DNA from: Crocinitomicaceae bacterium
GTDB taxonomy: Bacteria; Bacteroidota; Bacteroidia; Flavobacteriales_D; Parvicellaceae
Length of the DNA: 64,000 bases
Direction of reading: 5' to 3'
NCBI GenBank assembly: GCA_002723085.1
Contig: PBNK01000002.1
Location: 62,001 to 126,000 of the forward strand
Shown here: piece after piece, positions 1-7,087 of the stretch
How positions within the stretch are numbered: position 1 is the first letter of the stretch
How the letters are laid out: each line of letters begins with the position of its first letter
Notes under the pieces: generated by a model
Databases searched by the model: none
Seen by the model: the letters and a program-made list of their open reading frames with translations, nothing else
Told to the model about the DNA's origin: nothing
Translations under genes and position numbers: made by a program

Positions 1-2776
1 TTTTTTCAATCTGATGTTTTTCTATTATTTTATCAAATTCCCTAAATAAATTATCCAAGCTTTTAACCAATTTACTTGGGTCCATTGTTTCAGCAACTTT
101 ACTGAAGTCTTTAATGTCAGTAAACATGACTGTTGCCTTTCTATATTGTCTAGTTGTTGCAACGCCTTTATTTTTTAATTCATCGGCAGTTTCTGAAGGT
201 AAAATGTTCAAAAGCAATTTATCTGCTTTTTCTTTCTCTTTCTCAATATTTTTATTCTGAATTTCTATTTGATCTTTTTGCTTAGTGATGGTTTTTGTTC
301 TTCTTTCAACAAGAAATGCCAATCTTCTTTGCTGTCTTTTGATTGTTCTTACTCTTAATAAATACACTCCCCAAATGATTAAAAAAACCAAAATAGAAGA
401 AGAGACAATAAATTCCCAAGTTTTCCAATAGGGGGAGGAAATGTAAATTTTAATTTTTTCAGGTTCAGACCATACGCCATCATTATTTGATGCCCAAATT
501 TTAAATGTATAATCTCCTGGTGGGATGTTGGAATAATTTATAGGCTGAAGTTTTTTAATTTCTATGGGCTTATCATATAGGCCTTCTAAATGAATTTTAT
601 ACTTATTGCTTGCAGGATCAGTAAAATGAAGCCCCGTAAAATTAATGGAGAGGTTATTTTCAGAACTTTTCAATGAAACCGAATCAAGATAATATGGATT
701 ATCGTCTTTAATGTAATTTTGGAATTTGTTGGATTTTAAAACCATAAAATCGGTTAAAATGATTTTTGGCGGCACTCTATTAATCTCTATTTCATTGGGA
801 TTAAAAACATTAAACCCATTAATTCCTCCAAAATATATTTTCCCAGTATTGCTTTTACAGTATGCATTATTGTTAAACTCATTACTCTGCAAACCATTTG
901 CCTCATTAAAGTTTTTAAATTTTTCAATTTGTGGGTCAAATCTTGATATTCCAACATTTGTACTCATCCAAATCATTCCTTTATTATCTATTACCGTTCC
1001 ATAAATAGTATTATTTGACAACCCATCTTCTTCAGTAAAAAACCTAAATTTTTTAGTTTTAGGATTAAATTTATTTAACCCGCCACCCATTGTTCCTAAC
1101 CATAAATTATTTTCTTCATCCTCACTAATGGTTAATACGGTATTGCTGCTGATTGTGGCTTCTTCATCTTGTTTATACAAATAAGTTTTTGCTTCATAGC
1201 TATATTCCTCTTCTTTTTCAAAAAAGTTTAATTCACAAAATCCACCTCCATCAAAACCTAACCAACATTTACCATTAGATGAAAAAAAGATGCGCCTACA
1301 GTCAGCATCTGGAATTGAAGATGGATTGTTTGGATCGTGTGCTATTAGGTTATATGATAAAGTATTTAAATCTAAAATTCCAATGCCCTCCTTTAAAGCT
1401 ATCCACAACCTATTTTTTGAGTCTATGTTCAAATCATATACAGGTTGATTAAACACTGTATCGTTAGGCTTGAGTTTTTGAAAAACACCTTTTTCATAGT
1501 TTTCAGATAAATTTAACAGATATACTCCTGAATTTGTCGCTGTCCATATTCTATTTTGATCATCTACAATAATATCCCACACATCATTACTTCCTTCTTT
1601 TAGAATGTTTTCAGATTTAAATTCGTAATTAAAAATGGTATTGCTGGAAAAATCAATTCTTGACACCCCTTTTCTTGTACCAACCAAAGCAGATTGGGTT
1701 GTTTCTTCAAATATTGACCAAATATTATTATCAGAAATTACTGTTTGCCCATCTAGACTATTTGAAATTAGCTCAAAGTTTTGTTTTAGTGGGTCAAAAT
1801 AGGAAACTCCATATTGTGTCCCAACCCAAATATTACCAGAAAAATCTTTATAAATTTGATTAATAATATCACTAGACATTGAACTCAAATCATAATCACT
1901 ATTTACATAATTTTTAATAAAATACTTTCCTTTAATTTTATTTAATGAATAAAGTCCACTCCCTTTTGTCCCTACCCAAATTGAATTCTCGGATTCACAA
2001 AAAACAGATGATATAACTTTATTTTTTAATTCATTGTGTAAATTAATAACTCTTGATTCAGTTACTATATTAACCCCCTTATTAGTAGCTATATACAAAA
2101 GCGAATCTTTACATAAAAAAAGATCATTAATTGATTGATTAATGAGGTAATTATTATAAGATGGGGTACTAATTTTTAAATTATCTATAACTATTGTATT
2201 TATTCCTGCATCTGCGGTTCCAATAATTAGCAACGAATCATTTTGAATAATTAAATCTTTTATTCTATTAGACGATAGTCCATTCTCAGTTGTAAAATGA
2301 ATTAAAGAATCATCTTTCAATCTATATTTAACTATTCCTTTTTCTTCTAAAGCTATCCATAAAAATCCTAACTTATCTTCAACTATTTTTTTTACTTTAA
2401 CCCCGCTATTTAAAAATTTATTTTCTGTTCTTTTAAACTCATTGGTTAATGGAGGTTTATAGTTTAAACCAGCATTGGTTCCAGCCCAAAGAACTCCTTT
2501 AGAATCTTCAAAAGTGGATAAAATAAAAGAATTTGAAAGTGTATTTTTTTTCTTGATTTGATGTTTGAAATGTAAAACTTCATATCCGTCAAATCTATTT
2601 AATCCTTCTTGAGTTCCAAACCACATAAATCCAAATTGATCTTGAATTATAGAGTTTATCGTACTTTGACTTAACCCTTCTTTAATAGTAAGTTTTTTAA
2701 ACCTAATATTTGGATTTTGAGCAATAAAATTTAATGAGGAAATTAAAAGTATACAAAAGAGAATTTTTTTTAACAT
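1..2776 (-). CDS. Two-component-type beta-propeller sensor with C-terminal class III nucleotide cyclase (partial, runs off left edge)
   Basis: Translated from the ATG at 2774-2776, the frame stays open to the window edge (925 codons seen). It begins with a signal peptide (MLKKILFCILLISS, then a Gln near residue 20). About 650 residues of repeats follow with motifs such as FMWFGTQEG and NLWLGTMGGG, typical of two-component-regulator propellers. Next come a Y_Y_Y-type beta-sandwich (about 700-780), one membrane helix (about 783-805), a coiled coil and the start of a class III adenylate/guanylate cyclase domain (TVMFTDIKDFS near residue 886, which carries the first metal-binding Asp). The rest of the catalytic domain lies outside the window. 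Propeller-cyclases are thought to sense an extracytoplasmic ligand and make a cyclic nucleotide inside. The gene lies 22 bases downstream of the HAMP-PP2C gene, so it is probably the last visible member of that operon. Substrate (ATP or GTP) cannot be told from the part seen. Confidence 0.88.
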   Translation of the reverse strand, partial: MLKKILFCILLISSLNFIAQNPNIRFKKLTIKEGLSQSTINSIIQDQFGFMWFGTQEGLNRFDGYEVLHFKHQIKKKNTLSNSFILSTFEDSKGVLWAGTNAGLNYKPPLTNEFKRTENKFLNSGVKVKKIVEDKLGFLWIALEEKGIVKYRLKDDSLIHFTTENGLSSNRIKDLIIQNDSLLIIGTADAGINTIVIDNLKISTPSYNNYLINQSINDLFLCKDSLLYIATNKGVNIVTESRVINLHNELKNKVISSVFCESENSIWVGTKGSGLYSLNKIKGKYFIKNYVNSDYDLSSMSSDIINQIYKDFSGNIWVGTQYGVSYFDPLKQNFELISNSLDGQTVISDNNIWSIFEETTQSALVGTRKGVSRIDFSSNTIFNYEFKSENILKEGSNDVWDIIVDDQNRIWTATNSGVYLLNLSENYEKGVFQKLKPNDTVFNQPVYDLNIDSKNRLWIALKEGIGILDLNTLSYNLIAHDPNNPSSIPDADCRRIFFSSNGKCWLGFDGGGFCELNFFEKEEEYSYEAKTYLYKQDEEATISSNTVLTISEDEENNLWLGTMGGGLNKFNPKTKKFRFFTEEDGLSNNTIYGTVIDNKGMIWMSTNVGISRFDPQIEKFKNFNEANGLQSNEFNNNAYCKSNTGKIYFGGINGFNVFNPNEIEINRVPPKIILTDFMVLKSNKFQNYIKDDNPYYLDSVSLKSSENNLSINFTGLHFTDPASNKYKIHLEGLYDKPIEIKKLQPINYSNIPPGDYTFKIWASNNDGVWSEPEKIKIYISSPYWKTWEFIVSSSILVFLIIWGVYLLRVRTIKRQQRRLAFLVERRTKTITKQKDQIEIQNKNIEKEKEKADKLLLNILPSETADELKNKGVATTRQYRKATVMFTDIKDFSKVAETMDPSKLVKSLDNLFREFDKIIEKHQIEK

Positions 2777-2798
2777 TTCGAAACGAAATCATTATTAT

Positions 2799-4619
2799 TT
2801 ATACTTTAACTCCCATAACTAAAATATCATCAATTTGGTCTAACGAACCTCTCCATGCTTCTATTTTTTGATCTAAAAGCTCTTTTTGTTTTTCCATTGG
2901 TTCGCTACTAATTTTAATTAAAGTTTCCTTAAACTGTCTATACATGAATTTTTTACCCTTTAGACCTCCAAATTGATCAGCATATCCATCTGAAAAAAGA
3001 TAAATAATATCCCCTTTTTTAACATCAAGAGTAAAAGTCTCATAGTTTTTGGTGCCAGGTTCAAAAGAGCCAATAGCAAATTTATCAGTTTTAAAAACTT
3101 GAAGTTCATTGTCCCTAATTAAATAAAGAGGGTTATATGCACCTGAATATTGTATTTTATTTGTTTTCCTATTTAAAGAACAAATAGATATATCCATGCC
3201 ATCTCTAACTGCATTTTCATCTCCCGTTTTATTAAGCGATTCACTTGCATATTTATTTAAGGCGTCAAGAATAGGTCCTGTTTTATCTATACTTTTATCG
3301 TTTAAAACTGCATTTAATCCGTTAGCTCCTACTAAACTCATAAAAGCACCTGGAACACCATGACCAGTACAATCAACTGAAGCAAAAAGCATTTCGTCTT
3401 TAATTTGATTAACCCAATAAAAATCTCCTGAAACAATATCCTTTGGCTTAAACAAAACAAAAGAAGAAGGAAATAGCTTTTTAATAAATCTATCTGGAGG
3501 TAAAATTGAATCTTGCAACCTTTTAGCATATCTGATACTGTCAGTAACATCATTGTATAATTCCTCTAATTTTGATTTTTGATTATCAATTTCATCTTTT
3601 TGTCTTACGACCTCCTCTGTTCTTTCTTTTACTTTTTGTTCAAGAATTCTTTCAGTCTCAGCTAGTTCGTCCTTCATCTTAAGCAATGCATGACCAAGAA
3701 CATCGTCCTCACTTAAAGGTTGATATGGGTATTTAAAATTACTTTGTCCTACCTCATGAGCAAATTGAGTGGTTTCTTTAAGCCCTTTTACTAAAGAGTT
3801 CATCGCAACTGACATTTCCCCAATTTCATCATTGCTTGGTTCTATTTCATGAGATGGGAAAACACCATTTCCTAAATTGAGTAGAATTCTTTTTAATCTT
3901 TGAACTGGTTTCGTTATACTGAGAGTGGTAAAGAAAGCGATAATAAATGTACCTATTAAGAGGATAATTCCCACAAAAAATATGGTTTGTGATAAACTTG
4001 AAAACTTTTTATTGGTATCTTTAAAAGATTCATTATTTTCTTGTTGTTTCTCTTTTGCAATATCAGATCTTATTCTAATTAAACCATCTAATTGAGTTGA
4101 AATATTCTGATATATTGGAAGAATCTCCTCATCCAAAAGTCCTTGGGCTAGTAATTGTTGATCTTCATAACTTTCAAAATCTGGCAATAGATCTCTTATT
4201 GAAAAATTATACATATCAATTAATTCTTTAATCTGTAAATTTATATTATCATATGTTGCTTTTCCAATTTGGATAGTATCCCAATTATCAGATAAATAGT
4301 CTAATGATTTTAAATCAGCATAAAGTGAAGAATCTAATAAAAGAGCGGCTTCTAGTTTAAAAACTTCTGTAGCCCTAGTCTGCTCATTTGTCCAATTTTG
4401 CATATGGTTATGCGTCTTGGATAAATTATCTTTAAGATGGTTTAACCCATCAAAAGAAGGTTGGTCAATTTGTAAAAACTTATCATTTTTTTTAATGCTG
4501 TCTTCTAGAGTTTGCTTACCATCAGAAACCACAGAAAATGTGACACTAAAAACTATTAAAAGCAGCAAAACAACTATACCAAAACCAAAACCTATTTTTT
4601 TCCCAACAGTAAATCTCAA
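2799..4619 (-). CDS. HAMP-domain membrane sensor with C-terminal PP2C/SpoIIE-type phosphatase
   Basis: 606 residues. Membrane helix 1 is at about 9-31, a largely helical extracytoplasmic domain at 32-208, helix 2 at about 212-235, HAMP at about 236-285 (NDEIGEMSVAMNSL), a coiled coil at about 315-358, and a PP2C SpoIIE domain from about 361 to the end. Metal-binding motifs are present: SGDFYW (D399) and VDCTGHGVPGA (D416), plus SDGYADQFGG near the C-terminus. In known systems such phosphatases act on phosphorylated anti-sigma-antagonist (STAS) proteins or other Ser/Thr-phosphoproteins; no such partner is encoded in the window. The gene starts 7 bases after the TPR gene and belongs to the YfiR-TPR-PP2C-cyclase operon. 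The extracytoplasmic domain is a candidate docking site for the YfiR-like protein two genes upstream (inference). Confidence 0.93.
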   Translation of the reverse strand: MRFTVGKKIGFGFGIVVLLLLIVFSVTFSVVSDGKQTLEDSIKKNDKFLQIDQPSFDGLNHLKDNLSKTHNHMQNWTNEQTRATEVFKLEAALLLDSSLYADLKSLDYLSDNWDTIQIGKATYDNINLQIKELIDMYNFSIRDLLPDFESYEDQQLLAQGLLDEEILPIYQNISTQLDGLIRIRSDIAKEKQQENNESFKDTNKKFSSLSQTIFFVGIILLIGTFIIAFFTTLSITKPVQRLKRILLNLGNGVFPSHEIEPSNDEIGEMSVAMNSLVKGLKETTQFAHEVGQSNFKYPYQPLSEDDVLGHALLKMKDELAETERILEQKVKERTEEVVRQKDEIDNQKSKLEELYNDVTDSIRYAKRLQDSILPPDRFIKKLFPSSFVLFKPKDIVSGDFYWVNQIKDEMLFASVDCTGHGVPGAFMSLVGANGLNAVLNDKSIDKTGPILDALNKYASESLNKTGDENAVRDGMDISICSLNRKTNKIQYSGAYNPLYLIRDNELQVFKTDKFAIGSFEPGTKNYETFTLDVKKGDIIYLFSDGYADQFGGLKGKKFMYRQFKETLIKISSEPMEKQKELLDQKIEAWRGSLDQIDDILVMGVKV

Positions 4620-4626
4620 TGTTAAA

Positions 4627-5547
4627 TTAATTTTTTTGTGATTCGGATTCTGAATTTAGCTTCTTTAAAATATTTGCATATTTAACATAGTTTTCCATTT
4701 CATTTAAACTATAATAAACTGCAATAATTCCTTGAATAATTGATTTATCATTTGGCTTAGAATTATAGGCTCTTTTTAAATAAGGCAACGACTTAGAAAA
4801 ATTTTCAAGGGCTTGTTCTTCCATCATAATCACCTTTTCTAATTCTGCATCATCAGCAAGTTCTTCTAAAATTAAATCAACTCCAAGATTGTGATAAAGT
4901 ATTCCAGTGTTATAGTTAGCACTGTAATTTGTTGAATCTATAGATAAAGTATTTTTATAACATAAAATTGCCTTATCTAAAAATTCTCTTCTTTCTTTTT
5001 TCTTGTTTAGGTATTTAATTCTGTACTGAGTTGCTAAAGCTAAATTAAACTCAATGTCTTTGTTTTTAAAATCTTTATTAGGATCAATAAATCTTTCTAA
5101 ATTTTTATATTCATTATAAAAACGTTGTGCATCATCATAATGAACCGTATCTAAATAAAAAACAGCATGATTATAATAGCTTCTAGCTAAAGAACTTAAA
5201 GCTGATTTATTATTGTCTACAAATTCTTTCTTTTTATCTAACTCTAAAGACTTTTTAAACGACTCTATAGCTATATCTCTTGCTTTAGATATTGGTGATT
5301 TATTATCTACTTGCTTAAACACAAAGTAATTTACAAATCCGCTTAAATGCCAATAATAAGGATTATCCTTTTGATTTGGACAAGCTGATAAAACACTATC
5401 TAACATAACCTTTGCTTTATCGAATTTTTTTTCCTGATAATATTTTAATAATAGCACTTTTTCAGGACAGTTTTCATACTGTCCATATACTCCTAAAGAA
5501 GGAATGAAGAAAATAATGAGAAACGCTATTTTAATTAATTTAATCAT
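4627..5547 (-). CDS. Secreted TPR-repeat protein of the YfiR-PP2C operon
   Basis: 306 residues with a signal peptide (LIKIAFLIIFFIPSLGVYGQ). The mature part is helical and rich in Tyr, Lys and Asp, with TPR-like spacing: a first repeat at about 27-60, then units near 95-125, 165-215 (NYSANYNTGILYHNLG) and 240-290. Its ATG overlaps the stop of the YfiR-like gene by 4 bases (ATGA), and its stop is 7 bases before the HAMP-PP2C start, so the three are almost surely cotranslated. TPR proteins are scaffolds, so an envelope adaptor between the YfiR-like protein and the sensor domain is a reasonable guess, but no specific function is visible. Confidence 0.85.
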   Translation of the reverse strand: MIKLIKIAFLIIFFIPSLGVYGQYENCPEKVLLLKYYQEKKFDKAKVMLDSVLSACPNQKDNPYYWHLSGFVNYFVFKQVDNKSPISKARDIAIESFKKSLELDKKKEFVDNNKSALSSLARSYYNHAVFYLDTVHYDDAQRFYNEYKNLERFIDPNKDFKNKDIEFNLALATQYRIKYLNKKKERREFLDKAILCYKNTLSIDSTNYSANYNTGILYHNLGVDLILEELADDAELEKVIMMEEQALENFSKSLPYLKRAYNSKPNDKSIIQGIIAVYYSLNEMENYVKYANILKKLNSESESQKN

Positions 5548-6068
5548 ATAATATTGTAAGCCAATTTAATTATATTCTGACCTACTTTTAAATCATGTTT
5601 TTCAGCTTTTGTTTTGTTTAATTCAAACTTGAGTTTGCTGTCTTTAAATATAAAGTTAATGATTGCACCTGATGAAGCCAAATTTGTACTTTCAGAAACC
5701 ACCAATGTTTGATAATCAACATTTTTATTTATTTGATTTATAGCATCATTTTTTGATGAAGTAACAAATAAAATATGACAATTTTTTAATTCTTCTATAC
5801 TAGAACAATATTTAATCTTAATAGTTTGATTTCCAATTAGCTTATTTGTATACGAAACATTAAATTGTTTATATACATCTTCATCACCATATACCCCAAT
5901 AATAAAATTGCCTTTTGAATATTCTTCAGGCCATAAAATTTTTTTGGCAAATTGGTACATATAAATTCCTTTAAGCTTTGTTTTAGCAGCTGCAGCATCT
6001 CCGATTTGTGAAATTCCGGGTACATATGCTAATACTAAAAATAATGCTATTAAAAATTTAATTTTCAA
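5544..6068 (-). CDS. YfiR/DUF4154-family periplasmic protein
   Basis: 174 residues. The start is a TTG at 6066-6068 directly before a good signal peptide (KIKFLIALFLVLAYVPGISQ); there is no in-frame ATG near it. The mature part matches the DUF4154/YfiR pattern: KGIYMYQFAKKILWPEE near the N-terminus, FIIGVYGDEDVYKQF, a middle segment CHILFVTSSK and an end segment with INFIFKDSKLKFELN. In Pseudomonas, YfiR is a periplasmic repressor that binds the sensor domain of the diguanylate cyclase YfiN (TpbB). Here no GGDEF protein is nearby. Instead the operon encodes a TPR protein, a HAMP-PP2C sensor and a nucleotide cyclase, which suggests that the YfiR module controls a different output. First gene of the operon. 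Confidence 0.87.
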   Translation of the reverse strand: MKIKFLIALFLVLAYVPGISQIGDAAAAKTKLKGIYMYQFAKKILWPEEYSKGNFIIGVYGDEDVYKQFNVSYTNKLIGNQTIKIKYCSSIEELKNCHILFVTSSKNDAINQINKNVDYQTLVVSESTNLASSGAIINFIFKDSKLKFELNKTKAEKHDLKVGQNIIKLAYNII

Positions 6069-6132: not shown

Positions 6133-6555
6133 TTAACCATATTTAATTTTATACTTATAATGTTGCTCTCTGCTTTTTTGAGCTGCTTTCTTTACTTTTT
6201 CTTTATCATACTTATCTCTAATTGCTCTTTTTCTTTGCTGATAACTAAATGAATCTTTGTCTACACCTGAAGGCCTGTAACTAGATTTATTGCTATATCG
6301 AAAAGGATCATCGCTAATTCCAATTGTTCCCTTTGGGATTTTCATAAAATCAAATGGATTTTTCTTTTTAATAACATAGTTATTGGTTTTATTCCCATTA
6401 AAAAAAAGTCCTTTATTATTATTTTTCTTTATTTTAACAGGTCTTTTTTTTGACACAAAAGGGTCTCTATATTGAGCATTGATATTAGAAGAGTTTAAAC
6501 CAATCAATAACAAAACAATCAAAACATTTATAATGTATTTGTGCTTGAAACCCAT
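6133..6555 (-). CDS. Small basic secreted protein, function unknown
   Basis: 140 residues, not recognised. A hydrophobic N-terminal segment (about 9-26, ending NINAQ) looks like a cleaved signal peptide. The rest is strongly basic and low in complexity: Lys/Asn-rich stretches at 38-66, then DPFRYSNKSSYRP, and a Lys/Arg-rich C-terminal third (QQRKRAIRDKYDKEKVKKAAQK) that is likely helical. It has no Cys and no catalytic motif. It lies 64 bases upstream of the YfiR operon and 11 bases downstream of ferritin on the same strand, so it may be transcribed with ferritin. The ATG at 6553-6555 is the natural start. Confidence 0.65.
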   Translation of the reverse strand: MGFKHKYIINVLIVLLLIGLNSSNINAQYRDPFVSKKRPVKIKKNNNKGLFFNGNKTNNYVIKKKNPFDFMKIPKGTIGISDDPFRYSNKSSYRPSGVDKDSFSYQQRKRAIRDKYDKEKVKKAAQKSREQHYKYKIKYG

Positions 6556-6566
6556 ATTCTTTTTAC

Positions 6567-7067
6567 TTATTCCGGATTAGAAGAAGCTACTTTTAAATCT
6601 CTGTCAAATAAATAAAGCCCCCCTTTATCTTCACCAATCATGTTTAATTTATCAATAGTTGTTCTTGCTAAAGCTTCTTCTTCTAGTTGTTCTGCAACAT
6701 ACCATTGCATAAAATTATGAGTGGTGAAATCTTTTTCTTCTAAGCAAAGACCAACAATATTATTAATGCTTTCAGTTACATTAATCTCATGTTCTAATAA
6801 ACATTCAAAAACATGAGTTATCGATTTAAAAGTTGTCGGAGGTTTAATTAGGGCAGGTATAACAGCAGTACCTCCTCTTTCGTTAATAAATTTAACCAAT
6901 TTAAGCATGTGCATACGCTCTTCATCACTATGTTGGTATAAAAAGGAAGATGTTCCGTTTAAACCTTGTGATTCTGTCCATGAAGCCATTGACAAATAAA
7001 ACTGTGAAGAGGAAGCTTCTAACTCTATTTGCTTGTTTAAAGCTTTTTCAATAATTGATTTTAACAT
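6567..7067 (-). CDS. ftnA: Ferritin (iron storage)
   Basis: 166 residues from the ATG at 7065-7067 (MLKSIIEKALN). A TTG 15 bases further up would add KKKV-type residues, but it overlaps a promoter element and is not typical of the family. The protein is a four-helix ferritin: helix A holds the iron ligand Glu in NKQIELEASSSQFYLSMASW, helix B carries SDEERMHMLK (the E..H ferroxidase ligands), and helix D carries WYVAEQLEEEALA. It would oxidise Fe(II) and store Fe(III) in a 24-subunit cytoplasmic shell. It has no membrane or targeting segment. The length is normal for bacterial FtnA. Confidence 0.95.
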   Translation of the reverse strand: MLKSIIEKALNKQIELEASSSQFYLSMASWTESQGLNGTSSFLYQHSDEERMHMLKLVKFINERGGTAVIPALIKPPTTFKSITHVFECLLEHEINVTESINNIVGLCLEEKDFTTHNFMQWYVAEQLEEEALARTTIDKLNMIGEDKGGLYLFDRDLKVASSNPE

Positions 7068-7079
7068 TACTTTTTTTTT

Positions 7080-7087
7080 CAAATGTA
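7080..7087 (-). promoter_or_regulatory. Putative Bacteroidetes -7 promoter element for ferritin
   Basis: On the minus strand this reads TACATTTG, an exact match to the Bacteroidetes -7 consensus TAnnTTTG, ending 12 bases upstream of the ferritin ATG. It overlaps the alternative TTG codon, which favours the ATG as start. No convincing -33 TTG at normal spacing was seen. Confidence 0.45.

Follow-up and report, generated by a model that had tools for sequence, protein, structure and literature searches.

What does a YfiR protein control in a bacterium with no detectable GGDEF domain? Members of the YfiR/HmsC group govern diguanylate cyclases in Pseudomonas aeruginosa, Escherichia coli and Yersinia pestis (PMC2837407; PMC4992967; PMC5550408). 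The question is raised by a stretch of 64,000 nucleotides from a Crocinitomicaceae bacterium (assembly GCA_002723085.1, contig PBNK01000002.1, positions 62,001 to 126,000), hereafter the window. At its edge a yfiR gene is followed, on the same strand, by genes for a TPR protein, a membrane receptor with a PP2C phosphatase output and a class III nucleotide cyclase. We find that YfiR, the TPR protein and the PP2C receptor make up an invariant core, a strictly conserved gene set to which the cyclase is a facultative addition. On balance we consider it somewhat probable that the cluster is a transmembrane phosphatase switch, in which a SiaA-type phosphatase, gated by YfiR, acts on a SiaC or STAS phosphoprotein and sometimes feeds an adenylate cyclase.

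A conserved core of three genes

Profile searches in all six frames placed yfiR and tpr directly upstream of every one of the 51 receptor-PP2C genes that have upstream sequence, with median gaps of -4 bases between yfiR and tpr and 15 bases between tpr and the phosphatase gene. Sixteen of these loci were contributed by an independent scan, which took the N-terminal part of the receptor as its query and covered named Flavobacteriales, Salibacteraceae, Crocinitomicaceae and other Bacteroidota genomes; two of the sixteen repeat genomes already included, leaving 49 unique loci. YfiR had seemed to be missing at loci L149 and L151, and the all-frame searches found its gene in both. About 80 neighbourhoods of related loci were retrieved for comparison. 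The tight order is shared by about 50 genomes, so that it is not confined to the one in which the initial annotation had picked it out. Their YfiR proteins for the most part share only 23-41% identity with that of the window, and the recurrence of the order among such divergent genomes takes the arrangement far beyond chance. Within the taxonomic order of the window the pattern is yfiR-tpr-phosphatase, commonly with a ferritin gene upstream.

Searches detected YfiR in 43 of 60 near relatives and, across the phylum, in 39 of the 395 genomes sampled. Among the relatives, 40 have both YfiR and the receptor, 14 have neither and six are discordant (Fisher p = 2e-8, not corrected for relatedness). 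Comparison of tree distances over 32 loci brings modest support for a link of YfiR and TPR with the sensor: r is 0.78 for YfiR and sensor (partial correlation 0.54-0.58) and 0.84 for TPR and sensor (partial 0.64-0.69), the partial correlation of YfiR with ferritin being 0.18.

The cluster in the window

The initial annotation had described four genes on one strand, separated by -4, 7 and 22 bases, and their reading frames and domains are as it gave them. The extent of the set was drawn too narrowly: the cyclase gene is cut by the edge of the window, and the cluster begins upstream of yfiR, with a ferritin gene and a gene for a secreted protein of 140 residues, both on the same strand. The features, from the first gene of the cluster to the last, are these.

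6567..7082, minus strand: ferritin (PF00210, Pfam E 2.7e-39), first gene of the cluster
6133..6555, minus strand: small basic secreted protein of 140 residues, between ferritin and yfiR
5544..6068, minus strand: YfiR-family periplasmic protein (PF13689, DUF4154; Pfam E 1.2e-28), 174 residues, TTG start
4627..5547, minus strand: secreted TPR protein, 306 residues (weak Pfam TPR matches; TPR matches in PDB)
2799..4619, minus strand: membrane receptor with PP2C output (HAMP and SpoIIE/PP2C), 606 residues, TTG start
4005..4532, minus strand: receptor ectodomain, a modelled four-helix bundle, residues about 30-205 (predicted local distance difference test score, pLDDT, 91.3)
3777..3929, minus strand: HAMP domain, residues 231-281 of the receptor (Pfam PF00672)
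2805..3395, minus strand: PP2C/SpoIIE phosphatase domain, residues 409-605 of the receptor (Pfam E 2.3e-16)
2..2776, minus strand: propeller-class III cyclase-HD protein (Reg_prop, Y_Y_Y and Guanylate_cyc), residues 1-925 of 1285, the remainder lying beyond the window (L002:8919-12776)

From ferritin to cyclase the gaps are 11, 64, -4, 7 and 22 bases, the start of tpr overlapping yfiR by 4 bases. Of the 57 tpr-bearing loci listed, 38 have ferritin as the immediate upstream gene on the same strand; it may belong to the operon, and a tie to iron or oxidative stress is possible. The protein of 140 residues (6133-6555) has no match in Pfam or NCBIfam, and homologues occupy the same position in 14 loci of the window's family, its own included. 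Beyond the cyclase lie two genes (L002:2255-6254) that both apparently end in SPOR-like segments, as judged by eye only. Rfam and tRNA scans of the window found nothing.

A YfiR fold in a genome with no GGDEF match

The assignment of YfiR is firm at the level of the family, with a profile score of 100.4 bits against a gathering score of 24.9 (PF13689). As modelled (pLDDT 90.6), the protein has the YfiR fold, its best structural match being the solved P. aeruginosa YfiR (4zhu_B; Z 17.6, root-mean-square deviation 2.5 over 143 residues). It falls below the cut-offs of the NCBIfam YfiR equivalogs (NF053586, 21 bits against 85; NF053591, 92 against 125). The cysteine pairs known from P. aeruginosa YfiR (PMC4655355) are not conserved either: Cys97 alone is widely kept, and Cys88 occurs in one or two sequences. 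As these pairs are not conserved, we reject as the main input a redox control through disulfides of YfiR, of the kind known from P. aeruginosa or Y. pestis.

In the genome of the window (2.43 Mb, 95% complete), no match to the GGDEF domain was found by a search that was positive in 8 of 14 control genomes. This is the ground on which a pathway through cyclic di-GMP (c-di-GMP) was rejected. It also contradicts already the classical alternative, in which YfiR would control a diguanylate cyclase encoded elsewhere, as its counterparts do in the three species named at the outset; we give that alternative almost no credence. The genome search further returned a single YfiR and a single class III cyclase, so that the sole copies of both share one cluster. 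The initial annotation had proposed that YfiR is wired here to a HAMP-PP2C receptor, in place of a GGDEF enzyme. The proposal holds, given the missing GGDEF match, the single YfiR, which does not pair with GGDEF in this genome, and the joint travel of YfiR, TPR and sensor-PP2C.

The receptor and its phosphatase

The region that the initial annotation had singled out as the ectodomain, residues 32-208, coincides with the modelled four-helix bundle. Its structural matches are ligand-binding domains of chemoreceptors and kinases, with Z up to 17.4; such values are common for helical bundles, and the top matches are receptor domains with 140-158 aligned residues. They include entries for TorT-TorS, XylFII-LytS and QseG-QseE, a resemblance of fold only. 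The candidate that the ectodomain is a distant CHASE8 was rejected (no Pfam CHASE8 match, an hhalign probability of 2.3% and an all-helical model). Across receptors with different outputs, conservation peaks at P54, Y151, W76, W113, L145 and K88, and there is a weak rise in the direction of the presumed membrane-distal tip (Spearman -0.24). This pattern hints at a docking surface and does not prove one.

At the other end of the protein, the motifs DxTGHGVPG, FSDGxxDQFGG and QxDD are invariant in 24 relatives. The closest solved structure is the PP2C domain of SiaA (6k4e; E 5e-59, profile residues 316-597), and among solved structures and NCBIfam models together SiaA is likewise the nearest. 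The match to the full-length SiaA equivalog NF038263 reaches 215.8 bits against a cut-off of 700 and covers only residues 276-605. The receptor ends in a PP2C phosphatase that resembles SiaA and retains its conserved motifs.

Comparison with known systems

The module resembles a YfiR input joined to a SiaA output, and the membership tests place it in neither YfiBNR nor SiaABCD. With YfiBNR of P. aeruginosa (PMC4655355; PMC2837407; PMC3375315) and HmsCDE of Y. pestis (PMC5550408) it shares the gene of a YfiR-fold periplasmic protein set tightly beside that of a HAMP-type inner-membrane receptor. It differs from both in the ectodomain, a four-helix bundle instead of CHASE8/PAS, in the output, PP2C instead of GGDEF, and in the YfiR disulfide pairs, which the window's family does not conserve. 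No YfiB/OmpA domain is present among the proteins of the cluster, where YfiBNR has one; the TPR protein is there instead. With SiaABCD of P. aeruginosa (PMC7647112; PMC7278518) the common points are a HAMP-PP2C protein whose catalytic domain is of the SiaA type, the proximity of a cyclase gene, and SiaC and SiaB-like proteins in the genome. However, the operon of the window has no siaB, siaC or GGDEF gene, its ectodomain is unlike that of SiaA at the sequence level, its cyclase is of class III, and genes for YfiR and TPR are added.

Two further comparisons concern the input side. Other Bacteroidota have pairs in which a YfiR gene stands, likewise, directly upstream of a HAMP receptor, that receptor being a CHASE8-HAMP histidine kinase, often with a TonB receptor nearby; there both ectodomain and output differ from ours. 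TorT-TorS, XylFII-LytS and QseG-QseE also have helical-bundle ectodomains, read by a separate extracytoplasmic protein, yet their receptors are histidine kinases, their docking proteins are unrelated to YfiR and the likeness is one of fold only. In the open-access full-text literature we found nothing relevant that ties YfiR to PP2C, to Flavobacter-, or to Bacteroidetes together with histidine kinases.

YfiR as a probable input module

Among 12 receptors with a GAF or GAF-PAS output, homologous to ours in sensor and HAMP, eight are immediately preceded by YfiR; no TPR gene accompanies them. A natural fusion of YfiR and PP2C exists in genome G045 (566 residues; YfiR at 26-162, a hydrophobic segment, PP2C at 369-565). 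In genome G332, one strand carries within 10 kb (L145:4614-14161) YfiR, a TonB receptor, a CHASE8-HAMP-PP2C protein, a SiaB-like DUF6272 protein and a class III cyclase, the yfiR gene lying about 5 kb upstream of the consecutive genes for the last three. Elsewhere in the phylum YfiR precedes CHASE8-HAMP histidine kinases or is fused to kinases. Taken together, these contexts make YfiR look like a reusable periplasmic input module, the phosphatase form being the fixed one in the window's order. As a side observation, the G045 locus (L113:731-6626) has three SpoIIE-phosphatase genes in tandem, the first two with TPR repeats and the third being the fusion.

The same evidence bears on another explanation, that the genes share a promoter only and that YfiR makes no contact with the receptor, being a periplasmic protein that binds a ligand or is related to iron. 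Ferritin is indeed the usual upstream neighbour, and the YfiR fold is akin to that of substrate-binding proteins. However, YfiR stays beside homologous receptors where ferritin is not a neighbour (L132, L161-L177), and it is found fused to PP2C and to kinases. We regard the shared promoter as an improbable account.

A putative phosphatase switch

In the phosphatase switch that we favour, periplasmic YfiR would dock on the four-helix bundle of the receptor, as TorT does with TorS and XylFII with LytS, the TPR protein probably holding or presenting YfiR. Release or reloading of YfiR in response to a signal would shift the helices of the bundle, the HAMP domain would relay the shift to the phosphatase, and the phosphatase would dephosphorylate a partner of the SiaC or STAS type whose gene lies elsewhere in the genome. 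The action of YfiR is assumed to be repressive by default, as it is with YfiN. Where a cyclase gene is attached, as in the window, adenylate cyclase output may be tuned by the partner once it is dephosphorylated, or by the same envelope signal. This step would follow the logic of SiaABCD, with a class III cyclase in place of the c-di-GMP cyclase; the SiaA of P. aeruginosa removes phosphate from SiaC, which in its unphosphorylated form activates the diguanylate cyclase SiaD (PMC7278518; PMC7647112).

The likely substrate is a partner-switch protein, SiaC or STAS. The genome has four SiaC matches, one of which adjoins a SiaB-like protein and another SpoIIE phosphatase; its site reads YFNSSS, against YLNTSS in SiaC of P. 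aeruginosa (PMC7647112). SiaC-family phosphoproteins occur in 56 of the 60 relatives, with up to 11 copies per genome, an abundance that suggests many partner-switch circuits in the window's order. It may instead be that the phosphatase works through a STAS/RsbW-like switch on gene expression, SiaC and cyclic AMP (cAMP) being uninvolved. The genome does encode a single RsbW-like kinase and two free STAS proteins, of which one bears a DSSG motif, and in genome G055 (L071:4819-9168) the phosphatase gene is followed after 73 bases by DUF4175, 5 bases on by an RsbW-like kinase and then by ybeY, all on the same strand from phosphatase to kinase. The neighbourhood in G055 is, however, a single case, the PP2C domain is nearest to SiaA, and all but four of the 60 relatives have SiaC; we hold a purely STAS-based switch to be possible and rather unlikely.

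Several points weigh against the phosphatase switch as we have put it. The genome is 95% complete, so that absences, that of GGDEF among them, are not absolute. Four of the 12 GAF-output homologues of the receptor have no adjacent YfiR, and the presence of TPR is confounded with clade and with PP2C output. With no gene for SiaC, STAS or a kinase in the cluster, and nine SpoIIE-type phosphatase domains encoded in the genome, the substrate is only a candidate. The docking of YfiR and TPR, the gating of PP2C, the substrate and the coupling to cAMP are all steps that we infer. Lastly, the cyclase is separable from the core: it is sited elsewhere in several genomes that bear the core, and genus g2 has a cyclase with neither YfiR nor receptor.

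The cyclase, a facultative neighbour

The cyclase extends 360 residues past the edge of the window, to 1285 in all, with a complete class III cyclase domain followed by an HD domain at the C terminus. Its Guanylate_cyc match scores 169 bits, and the motifs FTDIKDF, IKTMGDAYM and YDIWGSTVNIAQR are present, with metal-binding Asp and substrate residues. The Lys/Asp pattern is one that we take, from general knowledge of class III cyclases, to be of the adenylate type; the predicted product is cAMP, a specificity read off these residues only.

Of the 46 unique loci whose sequence extends downstream, 16 have the cyclase directly behind the phosphatase and two more have the HD part only. Some related arrangements may be listed here. 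In family f2 (L080:8642-9226, L072:5935-6525) the gene directly behind the phosphatase encodes a stand-alone HD protein with homology to the C-terminal domain of the cyclase. The cyclase gene of G007 (L094:5311-9184) lies in two overlapping frames, by a frameshift or a sequencing error. 'Cyclase' matches at L126 and L138 proved to be propeller-derived, that at L138 being a propeller-MCP protein.

These counts, and the separability just described, speak for the view that YfiR, TPR and PP2C form the signalling unit and that the cyclase is merely co-transcribed with them, sensing a signal of its own through its periplasmic propeller. Yet genus g4, which has lost the propeller, keeps a transmembrane-cyclase-HD protein of about 515 residues at a distance of 2-6 bases behind the phosphatase; in the window's genome one cluster unites the single class III cyclase with the single YfiR; and G332 aligns CHASE8-HAMP-PP2C, SiaB-like and cyclase genes in a row. 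We judge mere co-transcription doubtful, if worth keeping in mind. The initial annotation went too far in making the cyclase a fixed member of the pathway, an action of YfiR on it being conjectural, and its 'envelope stress' switch was a guess only. Its observation is confirmed, and its interpretation as a whole is partly supported.

Significance

A broader proposal, which we advance more tentatively than any of the points above that we favour and think less probable than otherwise, is that YfiR serves as a general periplasmic adaptor for unrelated ectodomains, CHASE8 and four-helix bundle alike. In Bacteroidota with no detectable GGDEF it would drive a SiaA-SiaC (or STAS) switch regulating a class III adenylate cyclase, a SiaABCD-like circuit running on cAMP instead of c-di-GMP. 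In the papers that we found, YfiR appears solely as a repressor of diguanylate cyclases; in the clade described here it is fixed to a phosphatase receptor with another ectodomain, in a genome with no detectable GGDEF. The module suggests a route by which envelope signals may reach Ser/Thr phosphoprotein switches, and possibly cAMP, in such Bacteroidota, and it supplies a likely periplasmic input for one of their many orphan PP2C receptors.

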